Of a stretch of 64,000 bases of DNA, positions 2,867 to 53,158 are shown in pieces; position 1 is the first letter of the stretch; the number at the start of each line of letters is the position of its first letter. Source of the DNA: Prinia subflava (taxonomy: Eukaryota; Chordata; Aves; Passeriformes; Cisticolidae); NCBI RefSeq assembly GCF_021018805.1, contig NW_026960611.1:2604001-2668000 (forward strand). Reading direction: 5' to 3'. The notes below the pieces were generated by a model. The model saw nothing but the letters and a program-made list of their open reading frames with translations, was not told the origin of the DNA and did not search any database. A program made the position numbers and the translations under genes.

Positions 2867-2868
2867 TC

Positions 2869-20659: not shown

Positions 20660-22697
<2,038 letters not shown>

Positions 22698-29205: not shown

Positions 29206-29211
29206 ATCTCT

Positions 29212-29528
29212 TGACGCAGTTCGACATGAAAGAACCACGCAACTCACAGATGTCCCAGCAGGAAAGAAAAGCAGAACTTTCTTTCATATTTATACATTTT
29301 TGGCACCAGTTGAGGATTGATGGATGGGATCATGACCCCTCCAACCACACTGGTCAAACAGACAGTCAATCAGTTTTTCTCCACCTCCATTAAGGAATGT
29401 AAACAAAAAACTACCATTAGGTAAACAGAGCTATTTTTACATTAAGAAACTGTTAGAAGCGTGAGAATCTGACTCCAAGAAATTAAACAATCAGAAGGCT
29501 AAAAAATTTCTAAAAGAACAGGGTGACA
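29212..29528 (-). repeat. 3' LTR of provirus A
   Basis: This 317-bp LTR reads TGTCACCCTGTTC... to ...CTGCGTCA on the minus strand, with a TGTATAAATATG TATA motif. Compared with 52831-53152 I count about 16 substitutions and a 5-bp indel. Confidence 0.9.
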
Positions 29529-29541
29529 TCTCACCCTTTTT
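29529..29541 (-). other. polypurine tract of provirus A
   Basis: On the minus strand AAAAAGGGTGAGA lies directly before the 3' LTR. The same motif precedes the LTR of provirus F at 59777-59789, so it is the plus-strand primer tract of this family. Confidence 0.8.
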
Positions 29542-29605
29542 CTGTTAAAAAAAAAGAAAACAGAAAAAGAAAAATGAACAATGTAAAAGGGAACATGAAC
29601 AATGT

Positions 29606-29846
29606 TCAGTCACTGTTTGTGGAGGAATCATCAGAATGATCACTCGCATTGTCTGCATCTGAGTCGTCACTCGATGATTCGTCCATGTGATTTCTTTCAG
29701 TTTGGTCACGTTTTCTATCTTGCCCGTCGGCCAAATTCCGTCTCTGTAGTCGCAGGTCAGGACAGACACACTTCGAAGGTACCCAGCATCTGTAGATAAG
29801 CATGCATACCCACGTCCCATAGCAATAAGGTCATAGGGTCCTTCCC
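29606..29846 (-). pseudogene. integrase C-terminus of provirus A with acidic tail
   Basis: This is the 3' end of pol, separated from the rest by provirus B. The minus-strand frame next to B holds MGRGYACLSTDAG, as in F, then shifts after a deletion of about 10 bp near 29785 relative to F. The second frame (29606-29803) reads WVPSKC, PDLRLQRRNLADG and a Ser/Asp-rich end (DESSSDDSDADNASDHSDDS). The stop is followed by a spacer of about 65 nt, the polypurine tract and the LTR. There is no env gene or room for one. Confidence 0.8.
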
Positions 29847-30360
29847 TGTGGCGGTGTGTGAAATTTAGTTTATTAAGTTTGTTATATGATCCTTTGTTTC
29901 CTCCCTATCCACGTGTACCCCTGCGGCAAGTGACATAACTGTCAGTTTTCTGTCCGTCAGAAAGCCTGCGAGTTTTGTATTTCTCCCTCTCCCCTGGTTG
30001 GCAAAAGTTGAATATTGCACCTGTCTAACGGTCCCTAGAATTCCCTCTATTGGTTGTTTCGCCTTTACCCCTCCCTGACACCATCTGTATAAAAGTGTAC
30101 GCAGAACTGCCCTCGGGGCAGTTGCGAGAGCAGACGCAGGCGCGAGAGATCGCGCTTGCCGCACAATAAATGCTGCTACCTGCCTCCCACCCTGCCTCTG
30201 CTTCGTCACTTTAAGACCGCTGCCAAAGATCTCTCAAAACAAGAACCCACAGGAATCAGTATCGTCGCACGGCACACGAACTGATCCTCTTCCCGTGTCG
30301 CGGTGTCCTGGGCTAGCCGTGCGTGGAGACGCTGAGGTCTCGAAACACAGCACCGTGACA
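29847..30360 (+). repeat. 5' LTR of provirus B
   Basis: This 514-bp LTR begins TGTGGCGGTGTG and ends CACCGTGACA. A TATA box (TATAAAAG) is at 30088-30095 and AATAAA at 30165-30170, giving R and U5 of plausible size. It carries 8 extra bases (about 30299-30306) absent from the 3' copy. Confidence 0.92.
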
Positions 30361-30367
30361 TAAATTG

Positions 30368-30385
30368 TGGTGCCCAAGCCGTGGG
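30368..30385 (+). other. primer binding site of provirus B (tRNA-Lys-like)
   Basis: TGGTGCCCAAGCCGTGGGGC lies seven bases after the LTR. With one substitution and a 2-base insertion it fits the 3' end of vertebrate tRNA-Lys(1,2), the primer known for many class II ERVs. Confidence 0.6.
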
Positions 30386-31052
30386 GCTGAGAAGAGATGG
30401 ACGGAGGTCTCGAAAGCCCACAGAAAAAGGACTGGCAGACCCCACGCCAGGCGCGTGGTCTGAGAACTCGGTCTGTGAGCGTTGCAAGCAGCTTCGGTCG
30501 TAGCAGCCTCGTGGACTCGAGGAAGAGATCCCAGAGCGACGGGGAGGTAGCGCCACCCTCTTCGCACTCGAGGGAAGGCGTCTCCCCCAAAAGCAGAGGC
30601 ACCCTGAGATCAGTTTTTGCACCCGCCGCCAGGAATTCGGTAAGTATCCCTGCTTTTTCTGCGAGAGTGGGTTTCGGTTTTGGGAAGCCACCGTCGGAGC
30701 GAGTCCGTGGAGAGGTTGGTAGCGCGACCGCTGGGAGCGGAGCACTTTGCTCGTTCGCCGGTTTTTGGTTTTTCCTGGCGCTTTCCTTTCTTTCAGTTTG
30801 TTTTCGCGATTTTTGTTTTGTGCGCGAGAGCAGGTGTGCACGGGTGTGTGCAGCCGCTCGCGTGGCGGTCAGCGGTCACTCAGAAGGAGCGCGTTTGTGG
30901 CAGCAGCTTTTCGTTTCCCGCTGTGCGCCGGTTGGGTTCGCAGATTTAGCGAGTGCAGAGGTGCTGGTTTTTTAAAGGCGCAGCGGTTTTTTTTCTTTTA
31001 AACATTTATTTTCTTGATCTCGGTTTGGGAAAGTGCCGATTTTAAGATCTAA
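30386..31052 (+). promoter_or_regulatory. leader of provirus B with major splice donor
   Basis: The GC-rich leader of about 670 nt contains a strong donor, ATTCGGTAAGTAT, with the GT at 30640-30641. A spliced env message is therefore likely, using the acceptor near 44141. A 192-codon frame (30397-30975) is open across most of the leader, but the opposite strand is open too, so coding is doubtful. Packaging signals would be expected here by analogy only. Confidence 0.6.
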
Positions 31053-31085
31053 ATGGGGAAAGAGATGGGTGCCTCTTCCTTGTCG
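31053..31085 (+). pseudogene. start of gag (matrix) of provirus B
   Basis: ATG at 31053 opens a Met-Gly start that also has a second Met-Gly four codons later, consistent with an N-terminal myristoylation signal. Only about eleven codons precede the 4-bp target site of provirus C. Matrix resumes at 37840. Confidence 0.7.
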
Positions 31086-31089
31086 GTAC

Positions 31090-31883
31090 TGTGAAATACA
31101 AAGTTATGTTTCGTGTCAGGGAAATGAAGAAAATCTGTGTAATCATAGTGGTGGAACACAGCCATGGGACAGTTATAAAGATGAGTTCTAATAAACAGCT
31201 GAGGAAAGCATGGAAGGAAGTTTTTGAATAAATCTTTTGCTTGCAATTATCTATTATAAGTCTCAAGCTATTCTGCAATTAGTGTCCTTTAATTATAACT
31301 TTAGAAGCTTGCTTTGTATTAAAGAATTTTAAACTGTAGTTTTAGAGTGCAAAAAGGTTTTCTTTTAGACAAAAGAAGGAAAAAGGAGGGGGCTCAGGCC
31401 TCACACAAGGTGGGAAAACATCCTGGACATGAAGATATGACTTCAGCTCACTGATTTATGGCTCCTGGAGAGAGAAACTGGACATCACTATTGGAGATTT
31501 GAAGGACTTGAAAATAGAGATGGGACCCCCACATCTGGAAGCCAGATCCCACCACCTGGAAAAACATATCCTGGAAGTACATCCTGGAGTATTGAAATAT
31601 CAGAATAGATCACAATGGTCTATAGAATTATACAGGACAATCTATAGATTTATGGCTGTTAGGTATTGAATTGTGACGTTGAAACTAGAAATGGAAACTG
31701 CTGAGAAAGCTTATGAATATGTATAAAATACCATCAAATCCAGCAATAGGCGTGCAGTTGGAAGGGAAAACCCCTGCCACTGTACCCAGCGCTGCCTCTT
31801 TGCTCACACTTTACCATGTTAATTAATTAATTATTAAATTGCTGCTTGATATATTGGCCGTGTCAAGCGTCTCATTTTTAACA
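31090..31883 (+). repeat. 5' LTR of provirus C
   Basis: This 794-bp LTR begins TGTGAAATACAAAG and ends CTCATTTTTAACA. A TATA-like GTATAAAATACC lies near 31720 and ATTAAA near 31834. It is identical by eye to 37042-37835. Confidence 0.93.
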
Positions 31884-31886
31884 ATT

Positions 31887-31906
31887 TGGTGGAGAATGCG
31901 GGCATC
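31887..31906 (+). other. primer binding site of provirus C (tRNA-Ala)
   Basis: TGGTGGAGAATGCGGGCATC begins three bases after the LTR. Its complement, GATGCCCGCATTCTCCACCA, is the 3' end including CCA of a vertebrate tRNA-Ala(AGC) as I remember it. All 20 bases match. tRNA-Ala is an uncommon retroviral primer. Confidence 0.7.
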
Positions 31907-32502
31907 TCCAATCCATTGAGGGAGGCCCCTGATCTCGGGGAGGCGCCCCACCTTGCAGGCTTTTGCCTCAGGTGGCCCTGAGTGACTGGGGAATCTTTCA
32001 GGGAGAAGGAGATCCTCGAGGTAAATTGTGAGCAAAGGATTTTGAGCTCCCGGATAAAGCTGCAGTGAAATTCACCTGTAATAACTCGTGCACAGAGACC
32101 CAGGCGAGAAAAGGAGGCTGTAAGTATCGCTTGGTTAGGTGGGCTAAGAACAGGTACACACGTGTGAGAGTGTGAGTGGTGTGTGTGTGAGACGTGGTCT
32201 GACCACGAAGTGATTGTGGAGTTCTTCTAACCTCGGTTCCGTGTCTCCGCGAGGGGAGCGGCAGGTGAAGGAACAAAGCGAGTGTTGGTAAAGGGAATTC
32301 TTTCATATAAAAAGGTCGGGGGCGGGATGCGGCAATAGCTGGGGGGGATTTCTTTACAGTAAATCGGAGGCGGGAAGCGGTATTGGTTGAAGGGACTTTT
32401 TATTAAAGAAATCCTAGACAAGTGAGAAAATAGGAAGGCCTTTCATTACTGAAGTCAGAAAGAGTGTGGTCGAGGCAAGTGAGGGAATACCCGTTTCTTA
32501 GG
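31907..32502 (+). other. untranslated leader of provirus C
   Basis: About 600 nt between primer site and gag with no recognisable domain. It includes a (GT)n-like stretch near 32160-32190 and a tandem-like pair of GGGGGCGGGATGCGG and GGAGGCGGGAAGCGG. A packaging function would be expected by position only. Confidence 0.45.
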
Positions 32503-33301
32503 GTGGGTCAATGCCAAGGCAAGGACCCAGGGGTTGGTATAAACCAACAGGAAAATAGCAGTACTAAAGGTACTGGGAAAGGAGGGAGCTTTTTACCACA
32601 GGACAGTCCCCTGGGGTTAATGTTAAAATTTTAGGATGAATGTAAATCCAGGAAAGGAAAAAGTAAAGAGAAAATGATAAAATACTGTATGATGGAATGG
32701 ACTAAAGAAATGACACGACCTGATAATTTGTACTGGCCAATGTACAGGTCATCTGAGGAGTGGATCTGTCAGGCCCTGAATGCCTGTGTAAATAAAAAGG
32801 ATCCAATTAACCAAGAGAGCAATTATGCTGCTTTATAGCAGAAGTCCTGGCCTTCTCCCCTGTATGCTTTAAAAACCAAAAAAGGAGAAGAATCCATGAG
32901 GCCACTTACACAACCTCCCCCCTTATCTACCACAACCAGCTGCCCCACCAGAGGTGCCTAATCCAGCACCCCCAGCACCTCAAGCCCCTATGGCACCGCT
33001 TGCACCTCAAGCCCCTGTGGCTCTGCCTCGTCCTCCAGATTCACCACCTGCACATAGAAGCAGGGAGACAGTTCGGGCAGAAAGGCGCAAGGACAGTGAT
33101 AATGAGAGCAAAAGGGGCCAGTTAGATCCATTAAGGAAGGTACTGATAGCAAGATACCAAGGGGGGAAGGGGAGGACAGCTATTAGATATGTATCAGTAC
33201 CACTGAACACTGGGGATGTGAGAGCCCTTAAAAAGGAAATGGGGATGTCTGATAAACTAGATCAGTTCCTGGGGCCCAAGAAGTCACAATTAAGCTATTA
33301 A
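32503..33301 (+). pseudogene. gag remnant of provirus C (matrix to start of capsid)
   Basis: A GTG at 32503 followed by Gly-Gln codons sits where a myristoylated Met-Gly-Gln start would be expected. The frame then runs through a matrix-like EWTKEMTRPDNLYWPMY stretch but has an early in-frame stop near 32634 and another near 32836. After a shift, 32954-33301 is open: a proline/alanine-rich linker (APPAPQAPMAPLAPQAP), an Arg-rich part, and the capsid start RYVSVPLNTGDVRALKKEMG. It ends at 33301, where pol sequence begins abruptly, so most of capsid, all of nucleocapsid and protease, and most of RT were deleted. Confidence 0.7.
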
Positions 33302-34480
33302 ACTTCTTAGAGAAAAAGGGTTTGAAAGCTTCAATGTCCAAGTTGCAATTTGTAGAAGCACAAATGAAGTATTTGGGTCATTAGTTAAGTAAAAGAACAA
33401 AGAAACTGGACCCCGAATGAGTATCGGGCATACTTGCCTTACCTTCTCCCAGAACAAAGGGAGAGATAATACAGCTGGTAAAGCTATTAAAGTATTGTAG
33501 GCAGTAGATAAAAAAGTATAGTCAAAAAGCAAAATTTTTATATCAGAAGTTAACTGGAGAACAGATTCATGATTTTGTAGAGTTAATTGAATTACAAACT
33601 AAAGTAAGACCAGATTTAACTGAAATAAAAAAAAAAATAAAATTATCTGAAGGGGAGAAATATTTCATCAATAGCTCCTCCAAAGTATTAGAAAGGAAGC
33701 AGAGGTCAGGATATGCAATTGTAAAGGGAGGAAACATGTTGACAGTAGAAAGGAAAAGGTTAAGTTCCAGCTGGCCCGCACAAGCCCGGGAGTTATATGC
33801 GTTATACCAGGCTTTAGAACTGTTAAAAGACAAAGTGGAGACTATTTATACAAAGTATACTTTTAGAATTGTACATACTTTTAGGAAGATTTGGAAAGAG
33901 AGAAGTTTGATCAATACCCAAAGAAAATGGTTGATCTATCAAGAATTAATACTTGAAGTGCTTGTATCATTAAAAAGACCAGAAAAAAAAAAAAATAGCT
34001 GTTACACATGTAAAAGGTCACCAAAGAAACACAAGCTATTTAGCAAGAGGAAATAACATAGCTGACCAAGCTGCAAAAAGAGGCAGCTTTTGAATTGAAA
34101 GAAACAATTCAGTTGAATATTATAACAAAAGTTCAAAGAGAAGTCCAAAAAAATTTTATAGCTCCCAAGAAGCTATAAAGAAATTAGATACTAAGAAAGA
34201 ACAAAGAAAAGGAGTACTCTTAGATAGGTGGGAAATTTTGTCCAAAGCCTATGCACAAAAGATTTTGAGCCAATTACATCAGCATAGTCATTGAAGAACC
34301 AGAGCCTTGTGTGATCATTTTTTTAAAATATAATGGGTGTATTGGGATTTTTTTTTGAAATAGCAAAGCAAGTAACGCAGAGGCGTGTTACTTGTCAGAG
34401 AGTCAACAAAAAGGTAATGAGGCAAACTTCAACGGGGGGGGGGCAGTAAGAAAATAGCCTATAGACCTTTTGAAAGAGTT
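33302..34480 (+). pseudogene. RT end and RNase H remnant of provirus C
   Basis: The first frame after the deletion carries LEKKGLKASMSKLQF and EAQMKYLGH, typical of the end of a gammaretroviral RT palm and connection. RNase H follows at about 33650-34080: FINSSSKVLERKQRSGYA has Asn where the first catalytic Asp is expected, ARELYALYQALELL keeps the Glu, and the second Asp motif appears lost at TIYTKYTF. Several stops and frame changes occur. It cannot encode an active enzyme. Confidence 0.7.
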
Positions 34481-35100
34481 CAGATGGATTATGCTGAGCT
34501 TCCAAAAGTCAGTAAGTGGAAGTATCTGTTAGTAGTAGTAGATCAACTAATTCACTGGGTAGAAGCTTACCCAGCTTTAAGGGCCACGGCCAAATTTGTA
34601 ATTAAAATACTATTAGAACAAATTATTCCCCGATTTGGGGTTATTCGAGCCATTGATTCTGATCAAGGCTCCCATTTTACCTCTAGTGTCATCAAAGGGG
34701 TAACACAAGCCATGGGTATTTCCTGAGAACACCATACCCCCTTGGCACCCTCAGAGCTCTGTGAAGGTAGAAAAGAAGGACCAAACTATAAAACAGCATT
34801 TAACCAAATTAATGACTGAAACCAGAATGTCCTGGAAAAAATGTTTACCTTTAGCATTGCTTAATATAAGAGCACTTCCTAATGCAGATACTGGGCTATC
34901 AGCGTACGAAATGCTTTATGGAATGTCATATTCCCAGGAGATACCCCAAACATCAGTAATAATTGAAGATATGACTATTCAGAAATATATCCAAACAATT
35001 AGACAACATGTATTAGAGTTGAGCGAAAAGGAGAATTGGCTCAATCTACCCCTCTAGGATTTAGCATACATAAAATAAAACCAAGTGATTGAGTGCTGGT
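34481..35100 (+). pseudogene. integrase remnant of provirus C
   Basis: 34484-34726 reads MDYAELPKVSKWKYLLVVVD and later AIDSDQGSHFTS, matching the first two catalytic Asp motifs of a gamma-type integrase. A stop at 34724-34726 and a frame change lead to 34761-35057, which has the Glu motif KVEKKDQTIKQHLTKL and ALPNADTGLSAYEMLYGMSY. All three acidic residues of the D,D-E set are present, but on two frames. The HHCC zinc region upstream is unrecognisable, and the C-terminus after 35057 is broken by stops. Confidence 0.75.
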
Positions 35101-35318
35101 TAAAAGCTGCAAAGAGGAGACCTTATCTTCTAAATGGGAAGGCCCATATTTAACCCCTTAACCACTGATACAGCCATCTGGACTGCAGAGAAAGGCTGGA
35201 CCCACACATCACGATTAAAGGACCAGTGGGACCACCAACAGAGGCACCGGCCGAGCTTCAGTGGAAAATCTCATCTGCTCCTAGAGAACTGAAAATAAGA
35301 CTTAAAAAGGATTGATGC

Positions 35319-35768
35319 ATGTTTCAGAAACTCTTGTACCTGAGGTTTCAGAATCAAAACCTTCCAAGGAAAGTGAAATGTCCTACCCAAAACTGTAAAT
35401 GTTTTCCCTGGGGTTGTTTCAGGTGCATTGAGTGTCAGAAATTGTGGTATACAAACTTGGTGGGGGCAAGGATCCCTAGTACCCTTTGCTGGAGTTGTAG
35501 GGATGAGATAGAGAAAGAGACAGATAGAACACTAAGGGCTGCAGTAGAGAAAGGATACATCAAAGTAGGTGATAAGGATTGGTGGGGGACCTGGTTGCAC
35601 GGGACACGGGCTGGGATCGATCTGCAGGAAGAAGCAAAGGCAAAATTGGAAAGAATTGAGTGTGATTACAACAATTGGATACCAGACGGATACCAAATTG
35701 AAATAAGGGAGTGGCACAGAGCTAAGCTTCAGTGGGCCTGGCAACAATTCACAGGTAAGAATAAATAG
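35319..35768 (+). CDS. 149-codon cysteine-rich ORF between pol and env of provirus C
   Basis: An uninterrupted ATG-to-TAG frame lies between integrase and Env in an otherwise decayed element. Residues about 21-66 hold CPTQNCKCFPWGCFRCIEC and then a CWSC pair, eight cysteines in paired spacing that could bind zinc or form disulfides. The rest is charged and tryptophan-rich (VGDKDWWGTWLHG, ECDYNNWIP, LQWAWQQF) and looks helical. No signal peptide or membrane segment is visible. A donor-like CAGGTAAGAA lies at 35752-35761, just before the stop, and an acceptor-like TTGTTTCAGG near 35415-35424. I do not recognise the family. It could be an accessory protein, an Env 5' exon, or a frame kept open by chance. 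Confidence 0.45.
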   Translation: MFQKLLYLRFQNQNLPRKVKCPTQNCKCFPWGCFRCIECQKLWYTNLVGARIPSTLCWSCRDEIEKETDRTLRAAVEKGYIKVGDKDWWGTWLHGTRAGIDLQEEAKAKLERIECDYNNWIPDGYQIEIREWHRAKLQWAWQQFTGKNK

Positions 35769-35809
35769 AGGGCAAGACCAGATTGACCTCTGCCTTTGCC
35801 ACCAAGAAG

Positions 35810-36640
35810 ATGAAATTCCCAACTGTTGGCAGCAACCCAATAGGTTGGAGGGGTGGAAAGACATGTCATACTGGACCTCTCGTTATATACCTGATCATGT
35901 GTGTAAGCATTGCCATGGCAATTGACAAATGTCACTCATGTCACCAGGCGGTGAAATGGAGAGGAGTCACAACGGTATCCTTTGTTGGTCACACCCATAT
36001 AAACAAAGGTTGTTATGATGAAAGTCAGTTAAGGGTTTGTGAAGAGCAAGGAAGAGAATTTTGGATGGCAAAGAATTTAGGAGCAAGAGGAGGAGCTGGC
36101 TGTAATTACCAGACATGTCCAAGAAGAGAAGAATATATATGTTTTACCAAAGCAGGTATGTGGAGATGCACTGATGGGGGAGGAGTTCAATATGGGGAGA
36201 ATTTAGTGCAGAAAGCAGTAGAAGGGTTGAAAACCCACTCTGAATCTAAAGTTGCTTCCCCAAATTTGTATGAGAAATTAAAGAAACAGCTGCCAGAGTT
36301 AGATCTTTCCACTTCTGGAGAATTTGTTTATGGATTTAATGCAATGAATTGTAATAGAATTAAATATTTCCAAGTGCTGAATTTGTGGTGGGACCCAAAT
36401 GACAGGGCAATAGCCTTAGAGAGGAGAAGGGTCAGAAGTAGCACAAATTTTAAAGTAGAAGCGAACAGGAATTACAAGACCTGAAGAACGGACAGAAGGA
36501 TGGGTATTGACAAATATAGTGATAGGCCAAGAATGCATAGCCAAGAAAGGGAAAGCTTTTGAGACAAAGGTAGGGGAAACCCCTTGCAGGAAAATGTATA
36601 CCACAAATTTCTCTAAAATCGGTGGTAGCCACAAAACCCT
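35810..36640 (+). pseudogene. env surface-subunit remnant of provirus C
   Basis: ATG at 35810 begins a frame with a hydrophobic leader about 25-37 residues in (PLVIYLIMCVSIAMA) followed by IDKCHSCHQAVKW, which fits a late signal peptide and the start of a surface subunit. The frame is open to 36484 and rich in cysteines (CYDESQLRVCEEQGREFW, CNYQTCPRREEYICF). After a shift near 36475 a second frame continues with GWVLTNIVIGQECIAKKG to about 36640. No furin-type cleavage site or fusion peptide is seen. The protein would be truncated. Confidence 0.65.
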
Positions 36641-36689
36641 GAAGGATATTTAAGTAACAAACAAATGCCTGTTCAACAATAGAATTCTA

Positions 36690-37143
36690 TCCTTCAGCTC
36701 CATGGTGAGACCAGTTGTTTGGAGGGGGGGCTTGGTGGAAGAAAATAGTATTTATAATATTATGTTCATTGACTGGATTGTTGTTTTTACCTTGCTTAAT
36801 TCCATGCTTTGTTCGGCTTATCCACTCTGTGATACAAGGTATGCAGGTCGCTGTGATGCCAGTAGACCCTGAACTACCTACAGGGGAATTTGGCCATTTT
36901 GGGAAAACATCTAAAATATCCCAAATAATGAAATTAAAGGAGAAGGATGAAGAGGGAAAAGTTGCTAAAGTTTTGGCCAGGTTCGAAACCCAGACACGAA
37001 TAAGCAAGATAAATAAAAATTTATACAAGCAGAGTGGGGACTGTGAAATACAAAGTTATGTTTCGTGTCAGGGAAATGAAGAAAATCTGTGTAATCATAG
37101 TGGTGGAACACAGCCATGGGACAGTTATAAAGATGAGTTCTAA
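36690..37143 (+). pseudogene. env transmembrane-subunit remnant of provirus C
   Basis: The frame reads GGGAWWKKIVFIILCSLTGL and LFLPCLIPCFVRL, a membrane anchor with cysteines at its inner end as in gamma-type Env, then a basic cytoplasmic tail. The ectodomain (fusion peptide, immunosuppressive region, CX6CC) is missing, so a deletion joined surface-subunit sequence to the anchor. The frame runs on into the 3' LTR and stops at 37143. Confidence 0.65.
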
Positions 37144-37835
37144 TAAACAGCTGAGGAAAGCATGGAAGGAAGTTTTTGAATAAATCTTTTGCTTGCAATT
37201 ATCTATTATAAGTCTCAAGCTATTCTGCAATTAGTGTCCTTTAATTATAACTTTAGAAGCTTGCTTTGTATTAAAGAATTTTAAACTGTAGTTTTAGAGT
37301 GCAAAAAGGTTTTCTTTTAGACAAAAGAAGGAAAAAGGAGGGGGCTCAGGCCTCACACAAGGTGGGAAAACATCCTGGACATGAAGATATGACTTCAGCT
37401 CACTGATTTATGGCTCCTGGAGAGAGAAACTGGACATCACTATTGGAGATTTGAAGGACTTGAAAATAGAGATGGGACCCCCACATCTGGAAGCCAGATC
37501 CCACCACCTGGAAAAACATATCCTGGAAGTACATCCTGGAGTATTGAAATATCAGAATAGATCACAATGGTCTATAGAATTATACAGGACAATCTATAGA
37601 TTTATGGCTGTTAGGTATTGAATTGTGACGTTGAAACTAGAAATGGAAACTGCTGAGAAAGCTTATGAATATGTATAAAATACCATCAAATCCAGCAATA
37701 GGCGTGCAGTTGGAAGGGAAAACCCCTGCCACTGTACCCAGCGCTGCCTCTTTGCTCACACTTTACCATGTTAATTAATTAATTATTAAATTGCTGCTTG
37801 ATATATTGGCCGTGTCAAGCGTCTCATTTTTAACA
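37042..37835 (+). repeat. 3' LTR of provirus C
   Basis: This 794-bp LTR starts after a purine-rich GCAGAGTGGGGAC. It shows no difference from 31090-31883 by eye. The right target copy GTAC (37836-37839) leads straight back into the gag of B. Confidence 0.93.
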
Positions 37836-37839
37836 GTAC

Positions 37840-38904
37840 AGGATGGGATTTTAAAGGTTCTGGTTGAGCTGCTAGAATTTAAGAAAGCTAGGTTTTCTAA
37901 AAGTTGTGTAAAGCGATTTTCGCAATGGCTCTGTGTGATCTTCCCAGAAATCTCGCGAGCACATGCCCGCAGCCCGCATTTTTGGAGCGCTGCGGAGCAG
38001 AAATTGGCAGATTTGGCAGATGCAAAAAGCAGAGACCCTCAAAAATTTGCGGCTTTAATTGTGCAGCTCAAAGCTGCCCCAGCGGAATTCAGAGAATTTG
38101 TAAAAGAGCCATTGCGAGGACAGCTTGCCCCGGTTCACCCTTCCCACAGCCCCAAACCCTCTCCCCGCAAAAAAGTAATTTTAAAGAAAGCGGCAGACAA
38201 AAGGTCTACCAGCCCTGGCTTTTTTCAAAATTCCTGTTACCCCCGCCTGCGTAGTCTCGGCCGGACTGCGCGGGATGCTTCTAGGACCTCTGGCCCGGCG
38301 TCTAGAAGCCCTTCCCCCACCCTGATTTCTCCCAGTTCCAAGCCAAAAGTTTATTTTAAAGTTGCTGCGTCACAGAAGCCTTGTGGTGGTGGCTGTGGCG
38401 TCCAAGATGGCGGGGACCTCATGGTCCGTCCACCACCCCCCGCTCCTTGTCCCCACAATCCTCTTCATTCTCCCCACCCTTCCCCTTCACCCCACCCCCT
38501 CCCGTCCTCTACCCCTCCCACTGCCCCAAAGTTCCCACCCACATGCCCTGCCCCTGAGCCCTCCCACAGACCCGCCTGCCAGGCGGAGCCACAGGCGGAG
38601 TCCCTGGCGTGTCCCCACCCCGGACTTCGGTCATGTTGTTTGTTTGGTTCCCAGGGTGACGCTTCCGGTTCCCACGGTCAGAACCAGGAAGTAAACAACT
38701 GGGAACCAGGAAGTCAGCAGGCTTGCTTCACTGCTGCTCTGGTGACATTCAGGTGCTCCCGGGGGGACACCAGTGACAGTCCGTATTGGCAACCTTTTTC
38801 CCAAGAGATGATTAAGGATCTCTGTAAAGCTCACAGAGAGTACGGCAGGGAAAGCCCATACTTCCGTGGTCTCCTTACAGCCGATCTTTCTAATGCTGTA
38901 AGAG
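37840..38904 (+). pseudogene. gag of provirus B: matrix, proline-rich linker, capsid N-terminus
   Basis: Past provirus C the gag frame of B resumes and is open to 39110, though the similarity ends earlier. It has a matrix-like basic part (ARFSKSCVKRFSQWLCVIF), a long Pro/Ser/His linker (about 38430-38630) and a capsid start (YWQPFSQEMIKDLCKAHREY, then SPYFRGLLTADLSNA). This order is normal for betaretrovirus Gag. After about 38904 the capsid text is lost in an unrelated block. Confidence 0.75.
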
Positions 38905-39929: not shown

Positions 39930-39931
39930 CC

Positions 39932-42924: not shown

Positions 42925-42929
42925 CTCCG

Positions 42930-44030: not shown

Positions 44031-44130
44031 AATTGCACCTGGCTGACCCTGCCCATTCTCTGGGAATGGGAGGACCCGTCACCTTTCTCTTATTTTCAAC
44101 CGTCATGCTAATTATTATGTGTTTTAAAGT

Positions 44131-44141
44131 CTGTTTTTCAG
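44131..44141 (+). promoter_or_regulatory. env splice acceptor of provirus B
   Basis: CTGTTTTTCAG ending at 44141 is a good polypyrimidine/AG acceptor, 48 nt before the env start. It would pair with the donor at 30640. Confidence 0.5.
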
Positions 44142-44188
44142 TTTTTTAGTGTGAAAGATCCAACCCAGACCAGAAAAAGTCCACCACC

Positions 44189-44518
44189 ATGGCACATTTC
44201 CTGCCGATGATTCTCCTCCTCACCACCCTCCTGGCTGCCCATCATGCCAGAATCATCCCTCAGACCAAGGCAAACGTCTGGGCCACCCTCACTACACCTG
44301 TAGGCCAAGACCACATTCGCCTCAGCAAAACCTCAGCCACAGCTACAACTGAGGACATCAAAGAAGCCATCAAAAAAATGAGGGACTTGGTGAGCGAAAT
44401 CAAAGAAGAGACATCGGTCTGGTCCATCGACCCTTTTAAGAACATGGGACTCTCGGGTTGGTCTGGATCCATTTTGAAAACCTGTTTGTTTATATTATTT
44501 GTAATTACATTTGCATAA
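44189..44518 (+). CDS. 109-codon Env remnant of provirus B: signal peptide plus membrane anchor
   Basis: The ATG at 44189 is in a near-ideal context (CCACCATGG). Residues 1-20 form a clear signal peptide (HFLPMILLLTTLLAAHHA). A short polar segment follows (NVWATLTTPVGQDHIRLS), like the beginning of an Env surface subunit. Then a charged heptad-like helix (DIKEAIKKMRDLVSEIKEE), WSIDPFKNMGLSGW, and a hydrophobic anchor (LKTCLFILFVITFA) look like the end of a transmembrane subunit. A large deletion removed the rest, without breaking the frame. TAA at 44516-44518 stops inside the anchor. It may be a chance survivor; a small secreted or membrane peptide from the spliced message is possible. Confidence 0.55.
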   Translation: MAHFLPMILLLTTLLAAHHARIIPQTKANVWATLTTPVGQDHIRLSKTSATATTEDIKEAIKKMRDLVSEIKEETSVWSIDPFKNMGLSGWSGSILKTCLFILFVITFA

Positions 44519-44698
44519 GTTGTGATATGTTCTATTAGAAAGATGATTCGTAAGTTTATGTCTAGTGTTACATCTTCCCCAAAGCCGGCTGTGAACCGTG
44601 TCTCCATGGCAACTGTTCCTGAGGAAATTGAATTGGAAAACTTAGAAAAGTCCTGGGGGGACGAGAGCCTCTATGAGGAGCAGTGGTCATCCGTGTAG
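44519..44698 (+). pseudogene. Env cytoplasmic tail remnant of provirus B
   Basis: In the same frame after the TAA the sequence continues with VVICSIRKMIRKFMSS and an acidic end (EEIELENLEKSWGDESLYEE) to a TAG at 44696-44698. This is the rest of the anchor and tail, cut off by one in-frame stop. Confidence 0.55.
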
Positions 44699-44768
44699 TC
44701 AGGGTTCAGAGACAGCTTTTCTGAGTCTGAACAGCAGCCTCCTCCATGCCAGGTTTGCTCATCTTATT

Positions 44769-44786
44769 AAAAGAAAAAGGGGGAGA
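44769..44786 (+). other. polypurine tract of provirus B
   Basis: AAAAGAAAAAGGGGGAGA lies directly before the 3' LTR, a textbook plus-strand primer site. Confidence 0.88.
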
Positions 44787-45292
44787 TGTGGCGGTGTGTG
44801 AAATTTAGTTTATTAAATTTGTTATATGATCCTTTGTTTCCTCCCTATCCACGTGTACCCCTGCGGCAAGTGACGTAACTGTCAGTTTTCTGTCCGTCAG
44901 AAAGCCTGCGAGTTTTGTATTTCTCCCTCTCCCCTGGTTGGCAAAAGTTGAATATTGCACCTGTCTAATGGTCCCTAGAATTCCCTCTATTGGTTGTTTC
45001 GCCTTTACCCCTCCCTGACACCATCTGTATAAAAGTGTACGCAGAACTGCCCTCGGGGCAGTTGTGAGAGCAGACGCAGGCGCGAGAGATCGCGCTTGCC
45101 GCACAATAAACGCTGCTACCTGCCTCCCACCCTGCCTCTGCTTCGTCACTTTAAGACCGCTGCCAAAGATCTCTCAAAACAAGAACCCACAGGAATCAGT
45201 ATCGGCACACGGCGCACGAACTGATCCTCTTCCCGTGTCCTGGGCTTGCCGTGCGTGGAGACGCTGAGGTCTCGAAACACAGCACCGTGACA
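44787..45292 (+). repeat. 3' LTR of provirus B
   Basis: This 506-bp LTR has TATAAAAG at 45028-45035 and AATAAA at 45105-45110. It differs from 29847-30360 by about nine substitutions and lacks 8 bp. The right target copy CTTCCC is at 45293-45298. Confidence 0.92.
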
Positions 45293-45298
45293 CTTCCC

Positions 45299-46934
45299 AC
45301 TGCTTGGTGACTAAATTCCGGACTCTAACCTTCTCTCGAGGCTGATGCGTCTCGTCCGAAGCCTGTAACAAGAGGTGATGGTTCAAAATGACAGGGTTAC
45401 TTGAGTTCTGCGGCACTGTGAGGTGATTGATGACATACAAAGCCTTTGCCAACCGACTGTGCGGGGTTTCACCCTGCATTCCCTGTTTTTGTTTTTGGAG
45501 AACATGCTTGAGTGTACCGTGAGCGCATTCTACAATCGCTTGTCCAGTCGGAGAATGAGGGATACCAAACCTGTGTGACACACCCCACGACTGTAGGAAC
45601 TGCCGTACCTTCTGCGAGGCATAAGCAGGACCATTGTCGGTTTTCACAGCAGAAGGTATACCTAGAACAGCAAAGGCCTGCCTCCAGTGGGCAATGACAT
45701 TGTGGGTCTTTTCTCCCGTGTGAGCAGACGCCCACATTGCAGAGGAGAATGTGTCCACCGTGATGTGCACACACTTGAGCTGGCCGAACTTGGCAACCTG
45801 GGTGATATCGGTCTGCCAAAGCTCCAAGGCCTTAAGGCCTCTGGGGTTTACCCCTGCCAGCAAAGGTGTAGCCAGTGTGTGACAGTTGTCACACGACTTG
45901 ACTATGTTGCGAGCCTCAGTTGGCGTCAACTGGAACTGCTTCTGCAAAGTATGTGCATTCTGATGGAAAATCCCATGTGATGCCTTGGCCTGTGTGAGTG
46001 TGTCAGGCTGAGGTACTACCCATGCTGAGCTAGCCAACTTGTCAGCTCTCGTGTTACCTTCCACTACAAATCCTGGCAAGTTGGTGTGGCTTCTCATGTG
46101 CAGAACATAGTATGGATGAACTCTGGCCTGAATTGCACACCACAAGGTCTTCAGTAAATGAAACAAGGCAGGATTACTGACCTCCTTCAAAACTGAATAC
46201 CCCAACCGCTGTGCGATGTCAGCCACATAGGCAGAATCTGTGACCAAATTGAAAGGTTCCTGGGAAAATTTTTCAAATGCCATGACTGCAGCCCTCAGTT
46301 CAACCAATTGGGCTGAGCCATCCTCATGGCCTTTCAGGACCTGCCACTCAGATCCATCCTGCCAAGTAACAATGGCTTTCCCTGTTTTCCCCAAACCATC
46401 AGTGAAGACGGTGGGTCCTTGCACTGGTTCCTGGCTATTTTTGGGCTGCAAAGAAATCTGTGTGATTTTTGCCACTTGCAGTAGCTTGTGGCTGGGAAGA
46501 TGATATGTGATGTGTCCTGAAAAATTCTCCAAAGCACTTTGCAGGGACGCACTTTTTACAAGGCTCCATTCAAAATCCTCCTGCCGTACCGGGAGTATGA
46601 TCTTTGCAGGATCTGCACCCATCAATTGCAAACAACATTGCTGGCATTTGGTTACCAGGCAAGAAATTAGCTCAAAGAATGCAGTTGCCATCTTTTGCAT
46701 CTGATGGGGAAGGAAGACCCATTCCAAGATGTGCAAAGGATCAGATGATTTGTCACTCCATTGGCCAATGATGGCCATGTGATGTAAATCGGGAGTGGTA
46801 ATGAACACAGTAATATCAATGGAAGGTTCAATGCGGTGAACTTGGCAAGCAGAAAGAACTTGCTGAACCTCCTCCAGCACTTTACATGCCTCAGGGATCA
46901 ATGTGCGAGGTGACTTTAGATCAGAGTCTCCCTT
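45299..46934 (-). pseudogene. RT end, RNase H and integrase of provirus A
   Basis: Read on the minus strand, one frame with no internal stop covers the RT connection, RNase H (TVFTDGLGKTGKAIVTW, QLVELRAAVMAFEKF, NLVTDSAYVADI: Asp, Glu, Asp present) and integrase. Integrase has the HHCC region (HQNAHTLQKQFQL, KSCDNCH) and all three acidic residues (ELWQTDITQ, KTDNGPAY, GQAIVECAHGTLK). It stops making sense at NLVTKQWE, where provirus B begins. The frame is the same as the RT frame upstream, separated only by a TGA at 46935-46937. Confidence 0.85.
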
Positions 46935-47819
46935 TCATAAATCAAACAGTGAGGACAGTTGTGCTTTGGTCAGTCCCAAGTACGGACGCAACCAAGTGAT
47001 GACACCTACCAATTTTTGGACATCATTCAGTGTCTTCACCGAATGCACAAATTGCACCTCCTGGTGTCGGATTGTCCACTCCAGAATTTTGACCCCCAAA
47101 TATTTCCAAGGAGGTTGCTGTTGTACCTTTTCTGGAGCCACCTGCAGCCTATGAGAATGCAAAGCATTCAGCAACTGAGGGTGAATCCTCAGCAGCTCAT
47201 CCTGGGTGAACGCAGCCACCAAAATGTCATCCATGTAATGGTAGACATGAGCATCAGGGAACTGCTTGCGAACTCCAGACAAGGCACGGGCCACATACCA
47301 TTGGCATATGGCCAGTGAGTTCCAAATTCTTTGAGGCAAAAATTTCCATTGATATTGCTGCACGGGCTCAGCATTATTTATTGCTGGCACCTTGAAGGCA
47401 AATTTTGGTCTGTCATCAGGATGCAAAGGAATTGTGAAAAAACAATCCTTTAGATCCATAATGAGGACCGGCCAATCCGCGGGAAGCATGGTAGGCCATG
47501 GCATGCCCGCCTGCAATGTTCCCATACTTTCCATCACGGCATTGACTTTGCGGAGGTCTTGTAGCAATCTCCATTTCCCAGACTTTTTCCTGGTACAAAA
47601 TACAGGAGTGTTCCAGGGACTGGTAGAAGGCTCCAGATGGCCCTGGTTCAATTCCTCCTGCACTAGGTTTTGAAGGGTGACTAACTTGTCATGAGGGAGG
47701 GGCCACTGGTGCTCCCAGACAGGTTTGTCCACCAGCCACTGTAAAGGAGGCGTCAGACATGCTGCACCCTTCATCGCAGTGGCCCCCATCAAAAATCTGT
47801 CCCGATGCGCACCCCCCAC
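46935..47819 (-). pseudogene. reverse transcriptase of provirus A
   Basis: The minus-strand frame has the fingers ([28 protein letters not shown]), motif A ([19 protein letters not shown]) and YMDD (near 47235). Motif B is damaged (FLPQRIWNSLAICQ, where B has LPQGMKVSPVLCQ and F has RQGM). It ends at a TGA (46935-46937) in an otherwise continuous pol frame. The Gly loss in motif B and the stop both argue against activity. Confidence 0.83.
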
Positions 47820-48334
47820 GCAGACAGAACATCCCTCCCCCAGAGGTTAGCGATAGTCTCAGTAACATGAGACCAGACCATGGCCGTCTGTCCCTCCAGG
47901 TTCGTGATCAGCACGGGCTGCTGGCTCACATAGCACTGCACTGTTCCTCCCAGTCCCGTGACAGGCGTCTCCACCCGGTCCAACGGCCACTCCAGAGGCC
48001 AGGAGGCTAGGGAGAGAACAGTAATGTCTGCGCCGGTGTCGAAAAAACCACGGCGATGAATCTCTGGCAGCGTGGCACCAGGCAGACATGCCTTACAGAC
48101 ATTTGTGGTACAGTTTGGCCTTCCACACCGACCACACAAAAACAAGGGAGTTGTGACCCTCTGTACCTTCTTTCCCCATTTCTTGCCGGCCTGCGCATTC
48201 CCCTGCCATTGCTGCCTGCCTTGCGGCACTGCCCAGACCAGCTGCACCGCAGTAGCCATGGCAGGCTGCACTGCAGTAGCCACAGAGGCCAGTTTTTGAC
48301 CTGAGGTGCCTATCCTTGCACAGGCCTCTGCCAT
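47820..48334 (-). pseudogene. nucleocapsid-protease fusion of provirus A
   Basis: In one minus-strand frame a nucleocapsid zinc-knuckle remnant (CGRCGRPNCTTNVC, with the His replaced) passes directly into protease (TLPEIHRRGFFDTGADITVL; active-site D-T-G intact; NLWGRDVLSAWG near the end). In F about 700 bp with dUTPase lie between these points, so a deletion removed dUTPase and fused the two in frame. The frame's last codons overlap the RT frame start near 47789-47819. Confidence 0.75.
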
Positions 48335-48429
48335 CTGGGGGACAGAAGGATCACCAGGAAGAACCTCTATAATTCTCCTACAATCTGCACTGCAATTACT
48401 TCTTGCAAGATTGTTTAAGTAAAAGTTTT

Positions 48430-49494
48430 CTAGCTTTGGGGTCTCCCACCTACTTCTCCAGAGAGGCAGTCAGCCTCTCTGCAAACCGTAGGAGACTCAT
48501 CAGCCCCCTGAACAACAGTCACAAAAGATTCTTTCGGAGCAGCCATTTCTAAGGTTTGAACTAATGCTGCCATGCCTGTTGTCTGGCACTGATTGAGCAC
48601 AGTGATATCAAAGCCAATCTGCTGATTAGGACCAGCATAATTGCCTGCGCCCGTCAGCACATCAGTGCCAATCACACCCCTGGGATCCTGCAGATCTAGC
48701 GTAGCATTCTGTTCCACTGCTCTGATTGCCAGCTGAGTACATTTAGATTCAAAAATGCTGTATTCTAAAGGTTGAAAGAGAACATGAGCCAAGCTTCTGA
48801 TGTTGTACAGTGTCAGAATGTCCACACTGAGCACACAGAGCAGTTTCATGACTTCCACAGACCCCAGACCATATTTTCCCACCTTATCACAAAGTTCCAT
48901 GAGAGCCTTCCACAATAAGAGGTGATAGGTGTTATGAGGGACACCCCTAAGCACAGGGAAAGCCTGGGAAACTCCTGGTAAGGTGGCAGAATTTGCCAAA
49001 TCCCGTCCCGTGGACCCCACAGGGATGGATGCCTGACTGGGAGTCAGCTCAACAGCATCTGATATCACTGGCCCAGCATGACCAGCAGCCACCGCAGGGC
49101 TAGGAATTCCATCTCCACACTCCAGGGGGCAATGTCCAAAGGCACAATCACACATCTCCTCAACCTTAGCTTTAACATCTCCCCAAAATTGCCCATGACT
49201 TCTCGGACGCACGGTCACCTGACACGGGGGAAGGGTCCAAAAGGCACCTAAAGAAGAGCCACCAGCGCAGTGTCCCTTGCCCCTGGCAAGTGCTGGCCTC
49301 ATGCCGGCTATGTCAGTGCTTGTGCCAAAGGTGAACACCCTGGTGCTTGCACTCTCCAGAGCCCTGGTACTCACAGGAGGCGGCGGGGTCGGGACCTGGC
49401 CAGTCACTGTTGGGGGCAGGCCAGCCCCCTCAGAACTTGCTCCCGGCAGCAGTGCCAAAATGCCGACCCCTGGAGCCCACTCAGAGTGGGTAGG
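48430..49494 (-). pseudogene. gag capsid region of provirus A
   Basis: The minus-strand frame 48430-49458 contains a Pro-rich linker (TGQVPTPPPPVSTRA) and capsid text (QAFPVLRGVPHNTYHLL, NQQIGFDITVLNQCQ). The major homology region is ESFVTVVQGADE, as in F (ESFVTIVQGADEPFLRFVGR), but the frame slips right after GADE. Capsid N-terminal sequences upstream are interrupted by the solo LTR at 49499. Confidence 0.75.
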
Positions 49495-49498
49495 GGAG

Positions 49499-50314
49499 TG
49501 TGAAATACAAAGTCGTGTTTCGTGTCAGGTAAATAAAGAAAATCTGTTGAGTTGTAATTGTGGAACACAGCCATGGGACAGTTATAAAGATCAGTTCTAA
49601 TAAACAACCAAAGAAAGCATGGAAGGAGGTTTTTGAACAAACCTTTTGCTTGCAATTACCTATTATAAATCTCAAGGTATTCTGTAATAAGTGTCTTAAT
49701 TATAACTTTAGAAGCTTGCTTTGTATTAAAGAATTTTAAACTGTAGTTTTAGAATGTAAAAAGGCTTTAGACAAAAGAAGGAAGTAGGAATGATCTTAAG
49801 GCTTTCTCATAGAATGGTGAAAAACATCCTGGATATGGAAGAAAGATTTCAGCTCGCCGATTTATGGTTCTTGAAAAAGGGAAACTGTACATCACTATGG
49901 AAAGATTGATAGACCTGGAAAACAGAAGCTGGACCCCACATCTGGAAGCCGGACCCCACCATCTGGGATACATATCCTGGATGCACATCCTGGAATATTG
50001 AAATCTAAGATGGATCACAATAGAGTACAGAAATTGAACAGGAACATTACCATTGTAGATTTACGATTATTAGGTATTGAATAGTGACATTAAAAATTGG
50101 AAATAGAAACTGCTGAGAAAAGCTTATGAATATGTATGAATATAGCCAATAAAATACCAGCAAGTCCAGCAATCAGTGTGCAGTCGGAAGGGAAAACCCC
50201 TACCACTGTACCCAGTGCACTGTCTTTGCTCATACTTTACCATGCTAATTAATCAATTATTAAATTGAATTGCTGCTTGATATATTGGCAACATCAAGCG
50301 TCTCATTTCTAACA
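49499..50314 (+). mobile_element. solo LTR of the provirus C family in A gag
   Basis: This 816-bp unit begins TGTGAAATACAAAG and ends CTCATTTCTAACA, flanked by the 4-bp duplication GGAG (49495-49498 and 50315-50318). It matches the C LTR throughout but with many substitutions and indels, so it is an older member of that family. The absence of any internal region shows recombination to a solo LTR. Confidence 0.9.
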
Positions 50315-50318
50315 GGAG

Positions 50319-50694: not shown

Positions 50695-50699
50695 TGGTG

Positions 50700-52028
50700 T
50701 GTGATAAATAACATGGGATAATTCGTGTTATAGTATATATGTATATTGTGAAAAATGTAGTATGTTAATTCATGTTCTTATAGTTAATGAAATTTATTGA
50801 AAACTATAAAACTGTATATATGTGTGTGTTTTATGAAAATATAAGTTTCAGGACACCCTGTAACATTTTGTTAAACCAAATTATGAAAAGGCAGGCACCA
50901 CCCCAGAAACTCACATTCAGAAATAGACAAAAGGTTTACGGGAAAACCGGCAGTCTCCTCGAGCACCGGGAGGAGACCCATCAAGATAAGGGGCAGGACC
51001 ATCAACAGCACCAGACTACACCCTCACCGAGCAGCAAGCATCATCATCCATATCTCGACCATTCATCAGCCATGAAGATCTATAGAAACTGGACATTAAC
51101 ATATGAACTGAGAGAAAGAACTCTTTTCAGCCTAGCCGGAGACACCCTTGGATTTGAATAGCTAGCTGGGAAACAAAGGGGAAAATGAGGAGATATTGCC
51201 AAGGGCAGAATAAAGTGTATAAAACCCAAGCCCTGGACAGGGCAAATTTGTGAACCTAGGGGGAGACAGCAGACGGCCAGGTTCTGTGTCTCAAGGTTCA
51301 CCCTTGGCATTTTCCCAGGTAAAAATTGTCAAGTATCTCCGCTGTTGGTGGGTTTACCGAAATTCTGTAATTCGATCTTTTGTTAATAAACCAAATTATT
51401 ATTTTAATTGGAATATTGTATTGGCATTTATAACATATATATTGATATATGTCTATGGGAATAAATGAAACGAGCAAGTCCGGGCTTGTAGCGAATGCAC
51501 TTTAGGACAAACAAAAGCTGCTGCCAGGAATACAAGGCGGAGCTGGAAACACGAGAATCACCGACATTAACAACAGAAAGGGGGGTGGACTGACCCTTCT
51601 GGGCAGTGGGACTGTGAAGTGCCCAGCCATCAAGAATGATATGGATCTAGCAGCAATATCGGGAAGACGCCCCTCTATTCACCATCTCACCTCCCTGTTC
51701 TGACTTTCTGAGAGACTGAATCTTTCCCTCAGAAAGCCCTATTCAACAGACAGGATGACAGAAAGAAACTCATAAGGAAAAGAAAGACAAAAGACTATGG
51801 GAGCCACAGGCAAAATAAATTGTATATAAGGGGACCCCAAAAAGGGCTGAATTCGTGAACAGGGGGAACTACGGTGCAATAGACGCCATAGTTAAAGTTC
51901 ACCCAGTGCGGATCCCGGGACTCGACACTGAACTTCCGCTTGCTGGCTTGTCCAAAATTTCTGTTTGTTGAATCTCTGATTAATAAAAATTATTTTATTA
52001 ATTGGGAATTGGCTGAGTATTTATAACA
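50700..52028 (+). mobile_element. two-part LTR-like insertion in A gag
   Basis: The unit begins TGTGATAAATAACATGGG and ends TATTTATAACA, flanked by the 5-bp duplication TGGTG (50695-50699 and 52029-52033). It has two promoter/poly(A) modules: TATAAAA at 51218-51224 with AATAAA at 51385-51390, and TATATAAG at 51823-51830 with AATAAA at 51982-51987. The modules end alike (TTAATTGGAAT... or TTAATTGGGAAT... to ATTTATAACA) but their upstream parts are not obviously similar. It may be two related LTRs in tandem or a recombinant. A small frame at 50787-51161 shows no domain. Confidence 0.65.
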
Positions 52029-52033
52029 TGGTG

Positions 52034-52758
52034 GAAATGCCGCAATTCGGGCAGAGAGTCGTTAACGAATCAGAGTCAAGGAGCGGTGGAGGCTGATCCA
52101 GGGGCTCTTCGCAGCCCCCGAGGGCTGAGAAAGCATGAAGTGGGGGCAGCTGCACCTCACACCGCTGCATCCGTGGCGCAGGGATGGGTTGGGCCAGCCC
52201 TACTGGCTCCACAGAACTGTCAAGAGCCCGTGGGGCCCGGCCTACTCGCCGCCCCCCGGGGAACCAAGATCGCAATCAGGGGTGGAAATGCCCCTCAGCA
52301 CAGCGTTGTGGGGAGGAGGGGAGGGCTCTGCTGAGCGCAAGAAGCCGAAATCCACCTCAGCTCCCGGCACAGCGACGTCCGACAGGACATCCCCGCTCTA
52401 GGTCATCACCTGGGGTGGAAGAGGAGCTCTGGGAGCTCTGCCCATCTGCACAAGCCTCAGAGCTAGACGTGTCCAGGGCCTGCTGAAACGAATCAAACAG
52501 TTTCCACTGTACTAACAAGCGCGCCACCTCTACACTAAAATCAGCAGTGAGCTCGTCCATCAAACACTGGCCTAATCGAAACCACGCCTCCTTAGAGAAC
52601 GCATCCTCAGGCGTTGGGAAGAACCCCTGTTCCCATCCCCAGAAAAACAATCTTTCAAAACCCATGTAGGAAATGGAAGCTCGCTTCCTCTCCATGAGAT
52701 CTTTCCAGATATCCAGGACCAAGGAGTCCTGCGCTGGGACCACAGGGGTTGCCATCAT
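52034..52758 (-). pseudogene. gag matrix region of provirus A
   Basis: Two adjacent ATG codons near 52758 start a minus-strand frame (MATPVVPAQDSLVLDIWK, RASISYMGFERLFFWGWEQG, CLMDELTADFSVEVARLLVQ) that looks like a helical matrix domain with no Gly-2 myristoylation signal. It runs to a stop at 52357 and then continues in the same frame from 52275 to the element at 50700. The start lies only about 50 nt after the primer site. Confidence 0.65.
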
Positions 52759-52810
52759 TGCAAGAGCAAGGAAGGGGGAGTAAGAACTATTAAGACCTCA
52801 CCCAGCTGTT

Positions 52811-52828
52811 CCTGACAAGGGGTCACCA
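52811..52828 (-). other. primer binding site of provirus A
   Basis: On the minus strand TGGTGACCCCTTGTCAGG lies two bases after the 5' LTR. The first ten bases match the 3' end of tRNA-Trp and the rest do not, so the primer is probably tRNA-Trp with decay. Confidence 0.55.
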
Positions 52829-52830
52829 AC

Positions 52831-53152
52831 TGACACAGTTTGACGTGAAAGAACCACATGACTCACAGATGTCCCAGCAGGAAAGAAAAGCAGAACTTTA
52901 CTTTCTTTCATATTTATACATTTTTGGCACCAGTTGTGGATTGGAGGATGGGATCACGACCCCTCCAACCACACTGGTCAAACAGACAGTCAATCAGTTT
53001 TTCTCCTCCTCCATAAAGGAATGTAAACAAAAAACTACCATTAGGTAAACAGAGCTATTTTTACATTAGGAAACTGTTAGAAGCGTGGGAATCTGACTCC
53101 AAGAAATTAAACAATCAGAAGGCTAAAAAATTTCTAAAAGAACAGGGCAACA
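52831..53152 (-). repeat. 5' LTR of provirus A
   Basis: This 322-bp LTR reads TGTTGCCCTGTTC... to ...CTGTGTCA on the minus strand. It pairs with 29212-29528. The outer target copy ATCTCT is at 53153-53158. Confidence 0.9.
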
Positions 53153-53158
53153 ATCTCT

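Follow-up and report, generated by a model that had tools for sequence, protein, structure and literature searches.

A 64-kb window of the genome of the songbird Prinia subflava (contig NW_026960611.1, here C42; C42:2604001-2668000 of the 1.12-Gb assembly) contains a nest of endogenous retroviruses (ERVs) in which the order of insertion required by the nesting is the same as the order given by the divergence between paired long terminal repeats (LTRs). A minus-strand provirus, A (29212-53152, in positions of the window, meaning the whole stretch analysed), holds a plus-strand provirus, B (29847-45292), which in turn holds another plus-strand provirus, C (31090-37835). Any such locus offers a test of LTR dating, because nesting gives the order of the insertions with no need of a clock; here the two agree. 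We also find that the innermost element belongs to a young, dispersed family. Its sampled full-length copies share the damage to their enzyme genes and probably relied on the enzymes of other elements to spread.

Structure of the nest and order of insertion

We defined A, B and C by comparing the window with itself and reading the boundaries of each element. All six LTRs (6/6) run from TG to CA, and the target duplications are exact: ATCTCT for A (6 bp; 29206-29211 and 53153-53158), CTTCCC for B (6 bp; 29841-29846 and 45293-45298) and GTAC for C (4 bp; 31086-31089 and 37836-37839). The chance of an exact duplication at a fixed position is 4^-6 for A, 4^-6 for B and 4^-4 for C. The inner elements of the series A > B > C each have paired TG...CA LTRs, and the exact duplication flanking each one consists of sequence from the element around it. 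The sequence-only reading had proposed this three-deep nest at these places and with these duplications, and both proposals were borne out. It had further described three lineages with different duplication sizes in one 6-kb target; the target stands, with ~6.3 kb of sequence belonging to A itself, but the sizes are 6, 6 and 4 bp, only two. Its three insertions are present, but the count was too low, since the nest contains five more elements (E, H, I, J and K). The sequences directly after the 5' LTRs differ among A, B and C, and it is plausible that the three used different primers. The primer site of A may correspond to transfer RNA (tRNA) Trp and that of B to Lys-1,2.

Within A, the 3' LTR (317 bp; 29212-29528, minus) is followed by the end of pol, the integrase C-terminus (29529-29840, minus), which B severs from the remainder. 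Pol, protease and part of gag, identified by domain scan and alignment, resume at 45299-49498 (minus), and the 5' LTR (322 bp) lies at 52831-53152 (minus). B, in plus orientation, comprises a 5' LTR of 514 bp (29847-30360), a leader with the initial gag codons (30361-31085; gag start placed by eye against a Prinia protein match), the continuation of gag past C (37840-38896; domain scan and alignment), the end of gag with protease, reverse transcriptase (RT) and the start of the RNase H region (39515-42371), the remainder of RNase H with integrase and tail (42925-44786), and a 3' LTR of 506 bp (44787-45292). The left copy of GTAC places C inside the first ten codons of B gag. C itself is 6746 bp long, with LTRs of 794 bp at 31090-31883 and 37042-37835 around an internal region (31884-37041, plus) that holds a proline-rich frame, remnants of RT, RNase H and integrase, and env-like frames, as identified by Pfam and by eye.

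Uninterrupted counterparts of both target sites, which the sequence-only reading had suggested looking for, were found in sister copies within the same genome. The first is D (59728-64000, minus), a second A-like betaretroviral element identified by alignment, which lies outside the nest and runs off the window. Residues 1-674 of D pol align to A at 47321-45300 and residues 676-696 to A at 29844-29782, so that D is continuous across the site of B, with a single CTTCCC at 60101-60106 where B sits in A. Alignment of residues 676-696 and 699-734, in two frames, likewise identifies the severed end of A pol, and alignment to D also defined the two parts of the RNase H region in B. For the site of C, we searched the genome with the 300 bases to its left and scored 40 of 47 candidates (39 non-self). 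We compared 20 of the 39 non-self rows, being the best 21 minus one that ended short of the site, and aligned both flanks separately. The site was continuous into the right flank of B in 20/20 relatives, with a single GTAC in 19 and GGAC in one; in one relative (L073), just 38 bases of the right flank align. Since D and the B relatives are continuous at these sites, B lies in an A-type pol and C in a B-type gag.

The LTR pairs differ by 16 mismatches over 317 columns and a single 5-bp gap for A (5.05%; K80 distance 0.053; exact 95% interval 2.9-8.1%), by 9 mismatches in 506 columns plus one 8-bp gap for B (1.78%; K80 distance 0.018; 0.8-3.4%), and by none in 794 for C (0-0.5%). These alignments reproduce the counts previously made by eye. 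The distances thus decrease inward, 5.05% > 1.78% > 0%, and the claim that nesting and LTR divergence give one age order, which this alignment might have refuted, holds. One-sided Fisher tests, which take sites as independent and leave out the 5-bp and 8-bp gaps, gave p=0.0079 for A over B (A over 317 columns) and p=0.0002 for B over C. At the crow substitution rate of 0.0158 per site per million years (My), as given in a passage of PMC7341801, the insertions would date to 1.7 My for A, 0.6 My for B and <0.15 My for C. Only the order of the three is firm, and we infer the absolute ages. A slower rate of 0.0025 would give 10.5, 3.6 and <0.92 My.

The nest holds eight insertions, A included (A, B, C, E, H, I, J and K), three layers deep, and exact 4- to 6-bp duplications accompany 7/8 of them. 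A also contains E, a solo LTR of 816 bp (49499-50314, plus) with the duplication GGAG (49495-49498 and 50315-50318), which differs from the C LTR at 129/785 positions (16.4%). It further contains K (50700-52028), an LTR-like insertion with the duplication TGGTG and 635 bp long net of J and the J duplication. J, an LTR of 689 bp (50747-51435), splits K and has the duplication TATAT. Six A-LTR loci were compared, and just one of them, L006, has internal sequence like that of A. It contains neither E, next to whose site a short stretch is variable, nor K, whose site is continuous. A search with J, whose query also held K, returned 2193 first-look candidates in which the J family was dominant; among the matches listed, K had clear matches at just one other place (C36) and a weak partial match on C37.

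B also contains the truncated LTR H and the solo LTR I. H (38897-39514, plus) lies in the capsid region, was recognised by family search and alignment to B relatives, and has lost its 3' end; its family is dispersed, with 759 first-look candidates. Where H sits, 11/12 B relatives fetched have ~377 bp of capsid sequence, and the twelfth (L103) gave no alignment. H is an insertion that was followed by deletion of its 3' end together with the ~377 bp of B capsid sequence. I (548 bp; 42377-42924) is flanked by the 5-bp duplication CTCCG (42372-42376 and 42925-42929) and its family has 667 first-look candidates. We also considered captured host genes as the source of the two blocks, 618 bp and 548 bp long, that interrupt B; this is ruled out, both being LTRs of dispersed families.

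Coding content and the C family

Pfam scans of A, run on single open frames, matched gag p24, protease, RT, RNase H and integrase. The same scans of B matched a zinc knuckle, protease, RT and integrase, and its gag p24 match fell slightly short of the curated cut-off. D retains an open pol frame of 757 amino acids and a dUTPase-protease frame, with Pfam matches to dUTPase, protease, RT, RNase H and integrase. B gag had six matches among 7987 scored candidates: three Prinia subflava proteins, two of them named ERV-K Gag-like, and three proteins of Hirundo rustica.

C, on the other hand, offers only fragments. Of its 24 plus-strand frames of at least 40 amino acids, 20 were scanned (all but those starting at 35169, 35377, 35569 and 36081), and the only retroviral matches among these were the RT end (profile positions 166-203), part of RNase H and the integrase core, with the RT and RNase H matches below the Pfam curated cut-offs. 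Unrelated families also gave a few weak matches of the kind that arise by chance. The proline-rich frame is gag-like by eye, and the env-like frames, recognised by eye, have no Pfam match; a search for protein relatives of the env-like frame found none at E<=0.001 among 131 candidates.

By the rule that relates duplication length to class, as set out in part of PMC6523648 (4 bp for ERV1, 5 bp for ERV3, 6 bp for ERV2), A and B are predicted ERV2/ERVK elements, having both a 6-bp duplication and betaretrovirus-type gag and pol. C and E would be ERV1 by their 4-bp duplications (GTAC and GGAG; 13/13 C relatives likewise have 4-bp duplications), the C pol consisting of short remnants only. I, J and K would be ERV3/ERVL by the 5-bp duplication (CTCCG, TATAT and TGGTG).

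To place C among its relatives, we used a search of the assembly with the C LTR, which gave 649 first-look candidates, of which the best 40 were scored. Among these 40 rows, 28 belong to 14 LTR pairs, that of C among them, with spacings of 5935-5989 bp; the other 12 are single. Exact 4-bp duplications flank 13/13 of the other pairs, whose LTRs show no mismatch in 10 cases, one in 2 and 12 in one, so that 11/14 pairs are identical once C is counted. Leaving aside the pair with 12 differences and including C, the family shows 2 LTR differences in 10,326. Between copies, 5' LTRs are 0-6.1% apart (median 2.9%, 91 pairs), and this spread includes some near-identical clusters. In this sample, chosen by similarity to C, the dispersed positions, exact duplications and 0 or 1 mismatch in 13/14 pairs mark recent movement of the family.

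We then compared one 2.1-kb piece of each copy, covering the gag-like end, RT end, RNase H and integrase. The shortened structure of C is common to 13/13 other copies, with no insertion >26 bp relative to C, at 0.6-2.8% from C. Stops at C positions 33382, 33505, 34292 and 34724 are present in 14/14 copies, and that at 34054 in 9/14 (C included); across copies, the maximum frame length within the piece ranges from 121 to 194 amino acids. Thus all full-length copies in the sample (14/14, C included) share gene-destroying lesions in this piece, which indicates that the damage belongs to the sampled family and not to the C copy alone. Since stops and shortened structure are shared at 13 other loci, the lesions predate those insertions, and C is, as judged from this comparison, a provirus already defective when inserted. 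Being broken before insertion, C was presumably moved in trans, and the sampled family presumably was mobilised by the proteins of another element.

Distances in the LTR and in the pol piece do not run in parallel: C and C3 are 4.5% apart in the LTR versus 0.6% in the piece, C3 and C44a 0.1% versus 1.7%, and C41 and C6a 0.4% versus 2.9%. Because both LTRs are identical in each of these copies, we read the mosaic pattern as recombination between RNAs during reverse transcription. Taken further, C would represent a helper-dependent Prinia ERV lineage with 4-bp duplications that is still moving, with gene-dead copies multiplying in parallel from several subfamilies and different defective RNAs being co-packaged and recombining. 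We hold this fuller description tentatively, at slightly less than an even chance.

Separately, the copy at C44:1317787-1324525 has an exact duplication and 12 LTR differences, and its 5' LTR carries 12 derived G>A columns relative to outgroup E, the most of the 14 copies; it is possibly edited or older. Deaminase hypermutation was considered as a source of the differences among C copies and set aside, the bias toward purine changes being weak with no clear editing signature. With E as outgroup, polymorphic columns gave 20 G>A versus 7 C>T changes (p=0.044 per opportunity) and 16 A>G versus 5 T>C (p=0.071).

History of the nest and rival explanations

Together, the joins, the duplications, the LTR distances, the empty sites in sister copies, the shared lesions and the mosaic pattern lead us to a history that we hold with high confidence as a whole: A first, B and then C later, as the LTRs also indicate, and C defective, presumably trans-mobilised and co-packaged. 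A, a betaretrovirus-like, ERV2-type provirus with a 6-bp duplication, integrated first, and B, also with 6 bp, entered the integrase end of A pol. E (4 bp) entered A gag, and K (5 bp) also entered A, to be split later by J (5 bp). B received H, I (5 bp) and C (4 bp), the last landing among the first ten codons of its gag, and H later lost its 3' end with neighbouring gag sequence. For E, K, J, H and I, nesting alone sets the order, both within this group and relative to C. E and I each consist of one LTR, as presumably do J and K, and presumably reached this state when two LTRs recombined. C was defective on landing; it was presumably moved by another element's proteins, and its RNA presumably copied by reverse transcription in particles holding two different RNAs.

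One rival explanation is that the nest is an assembly artefact, a chimeric join of repeats from different places. Its parts are indeed repeats with other copies in the genome. However, an artefact is made unlikely by the exact duplications of 4 to 6 bp at all but one of the eight insertions and by the continuous targets in sister copies at the sites of B, C and K; the 64-kb window has no N anywhere, and no other A LTR of full identity appears among the best 40 scored matches. We consider such a join very improbable. Nesting and LTR divergence could also give the same ranking by coincidence, as only three elements are dated and chance agreement has a probability of one in six. The differences in proportion are each nominally significant, however, and the insertion order requires the agreement, which leaves coincidence unlikely, although it is the least improbable of these rivals.

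Two further rivals concern C. Its genes are heavily broken despite identical LTRs, as would be expected if C were older than its position in the nest suggests, with LTRs made identical by gene conversion. Against this, its lesions are shared at 13 other loci, 12/13 of which have 0 or 1 LTR differences, and conversion at nearly every one of them is unlikely; C is in any case younger than B. Like the artefact, we judge this to be highly improbable. Alternatively, C might have been replication-competent on arrival, its genes having decayed in place, with which the still recognisable remnants of RT, RNase H and integrase (the first two below the cut-offs given above) would fit. This we regard as the most improbable of all, since stops and shortened structure that recur at 13 other loci must be older than those insertions.

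Several observations weigh against the preferred history of sequential insertion ending in a defective C. Reading-frame damage is out of step with LTR order, A being the oldest yet having the least broken pol, with one stop in 674 residues aligned to D pol and one frame change near the end; inherited damage accounts for C, and the state of A may be chance. The Fisher tests take no account of indels, rate variation, CpG decay or gene conversion, and 6/9 of the B differences and 5/16 of the A differences lie in CpG context. Every empty site is a sister copy in the same genome. Among the additional insertions, H is unable to show a duplication, the J duplication is of low complexity, and the K family is thinly supported. 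Finally, the sampled C copies are the best matches to the C LTR and so lean young, one of the 14 pairs has 12 differences, and each copy was compared over just one 2.1-kb piece.

Surroundings and relation to known systems

Elsewhere in the window, a provirus F lies at 2530-8290 (plus), with an LTR pair of ~335 bp that is 93% identical, the duplication CCAAGT and a short protease-like match at 3358-3480. Pfam scans of eight frames in F and four in the other flanks, most of the flanks lying outside the scan, gave no convincing domain. Two solo LTRs of one family, G, are 93% identical; that at 56099-56887 has a 6-bp duplication, GGGGAG, and that at 11124-11913 just a 5-bp match. An AAGA microsatellite of ~76 copies occupies 22388-22695. 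No tRNA genes (ARAGORN, bacterial settings) and no Rfam families were found in the window.

Contigs C36-C52, which are mostly small and include that of the window, account for 22, 10, 24, 23, 23 and 27 of the first 40 rows in six ERV searches (own rows included), a tally that leaves out two and four extra rows from the H and J/K searches. The 11/17 contigs of known length total just 40.4 of 1120 Mb. The lowest share, 10/40, is that of C's own family, the youngest. It is possible that C36-C52 are W-linked scaffolds, a grouping made after seeing the matches.

There are precedents for nested ERVs, for LTR dating and for defective ERVs mobilised in trans, and this locus is a rich new example. Nested clusters of LTR retrotransposons in maize (adh1) and wheat dated by LTR divergence are described in the REANNOTATE work (PMC2672092), the relevant part of which likewise combines nesting order with LTR-divergence age in one cluster; those clusters come from cereals and human chromosomes, whereas here the host is a songbird and elements with 4-, 5- and 6-bp duplications share one nest. 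In the mouse nonagouti allele, as presented in a section of PMC6677723, a beta4 provirus with identical LTRs lies inside VL30, and 4-bp and 6-bp duplications again occur together. There, however, two layers are present, the 6-bp element lies inside the 4-bp one and the phenotype is known; the present nest stacks eight insertions and has a defective 4-bp element innermost. Another bird genome, that of the chicken, has seven nested structurally intact elements in the LocaTR annotation, and the passages of that report considered here (PMC5006616) describe one element inside another, with no nesting beyond that depth.

For C, the closest parallels are cattle ERVK[2-1-LTR] D-type elements and mouse ETn/MusD, which are also defective, young and dispersed; according to the sections of PMC10924933 that treat them, the cattle D-type elements and ETn are supplied in trans by competent relatives. 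The cattle elements measure ~6.8 kb there, compared with 6746 bp for C. C differs in its 4-bp duplication and songbird host, and its supply in trans is something we infer. Within the literature library searched, we found no paper joining Prinia and endogenous retrovirus, or Prinia subflava and genome assembly, and none joining nested, endogenous retrovirus, LTR divergence and songbird. What this locus adds is a fuller inventory of a nest, empty sites in sister copies, and an innermost element from a young, gene-dead, mosaic and presumably helper-dependent family.

In other respects this is an ordinary ERV graveyard, though an unusually full one. If the C lineage is indeed helper-dependent and still moving, it would be a songbird counterpart of the parasite-of-parasite systems of cattle and mouse, on chromosomes that collect ERVs. 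The lesions shared by its dispersed copies show that a gene-dead retrovirus lineage has been copied recently in a songbird, and the source of its enzymes becomes a testable question.

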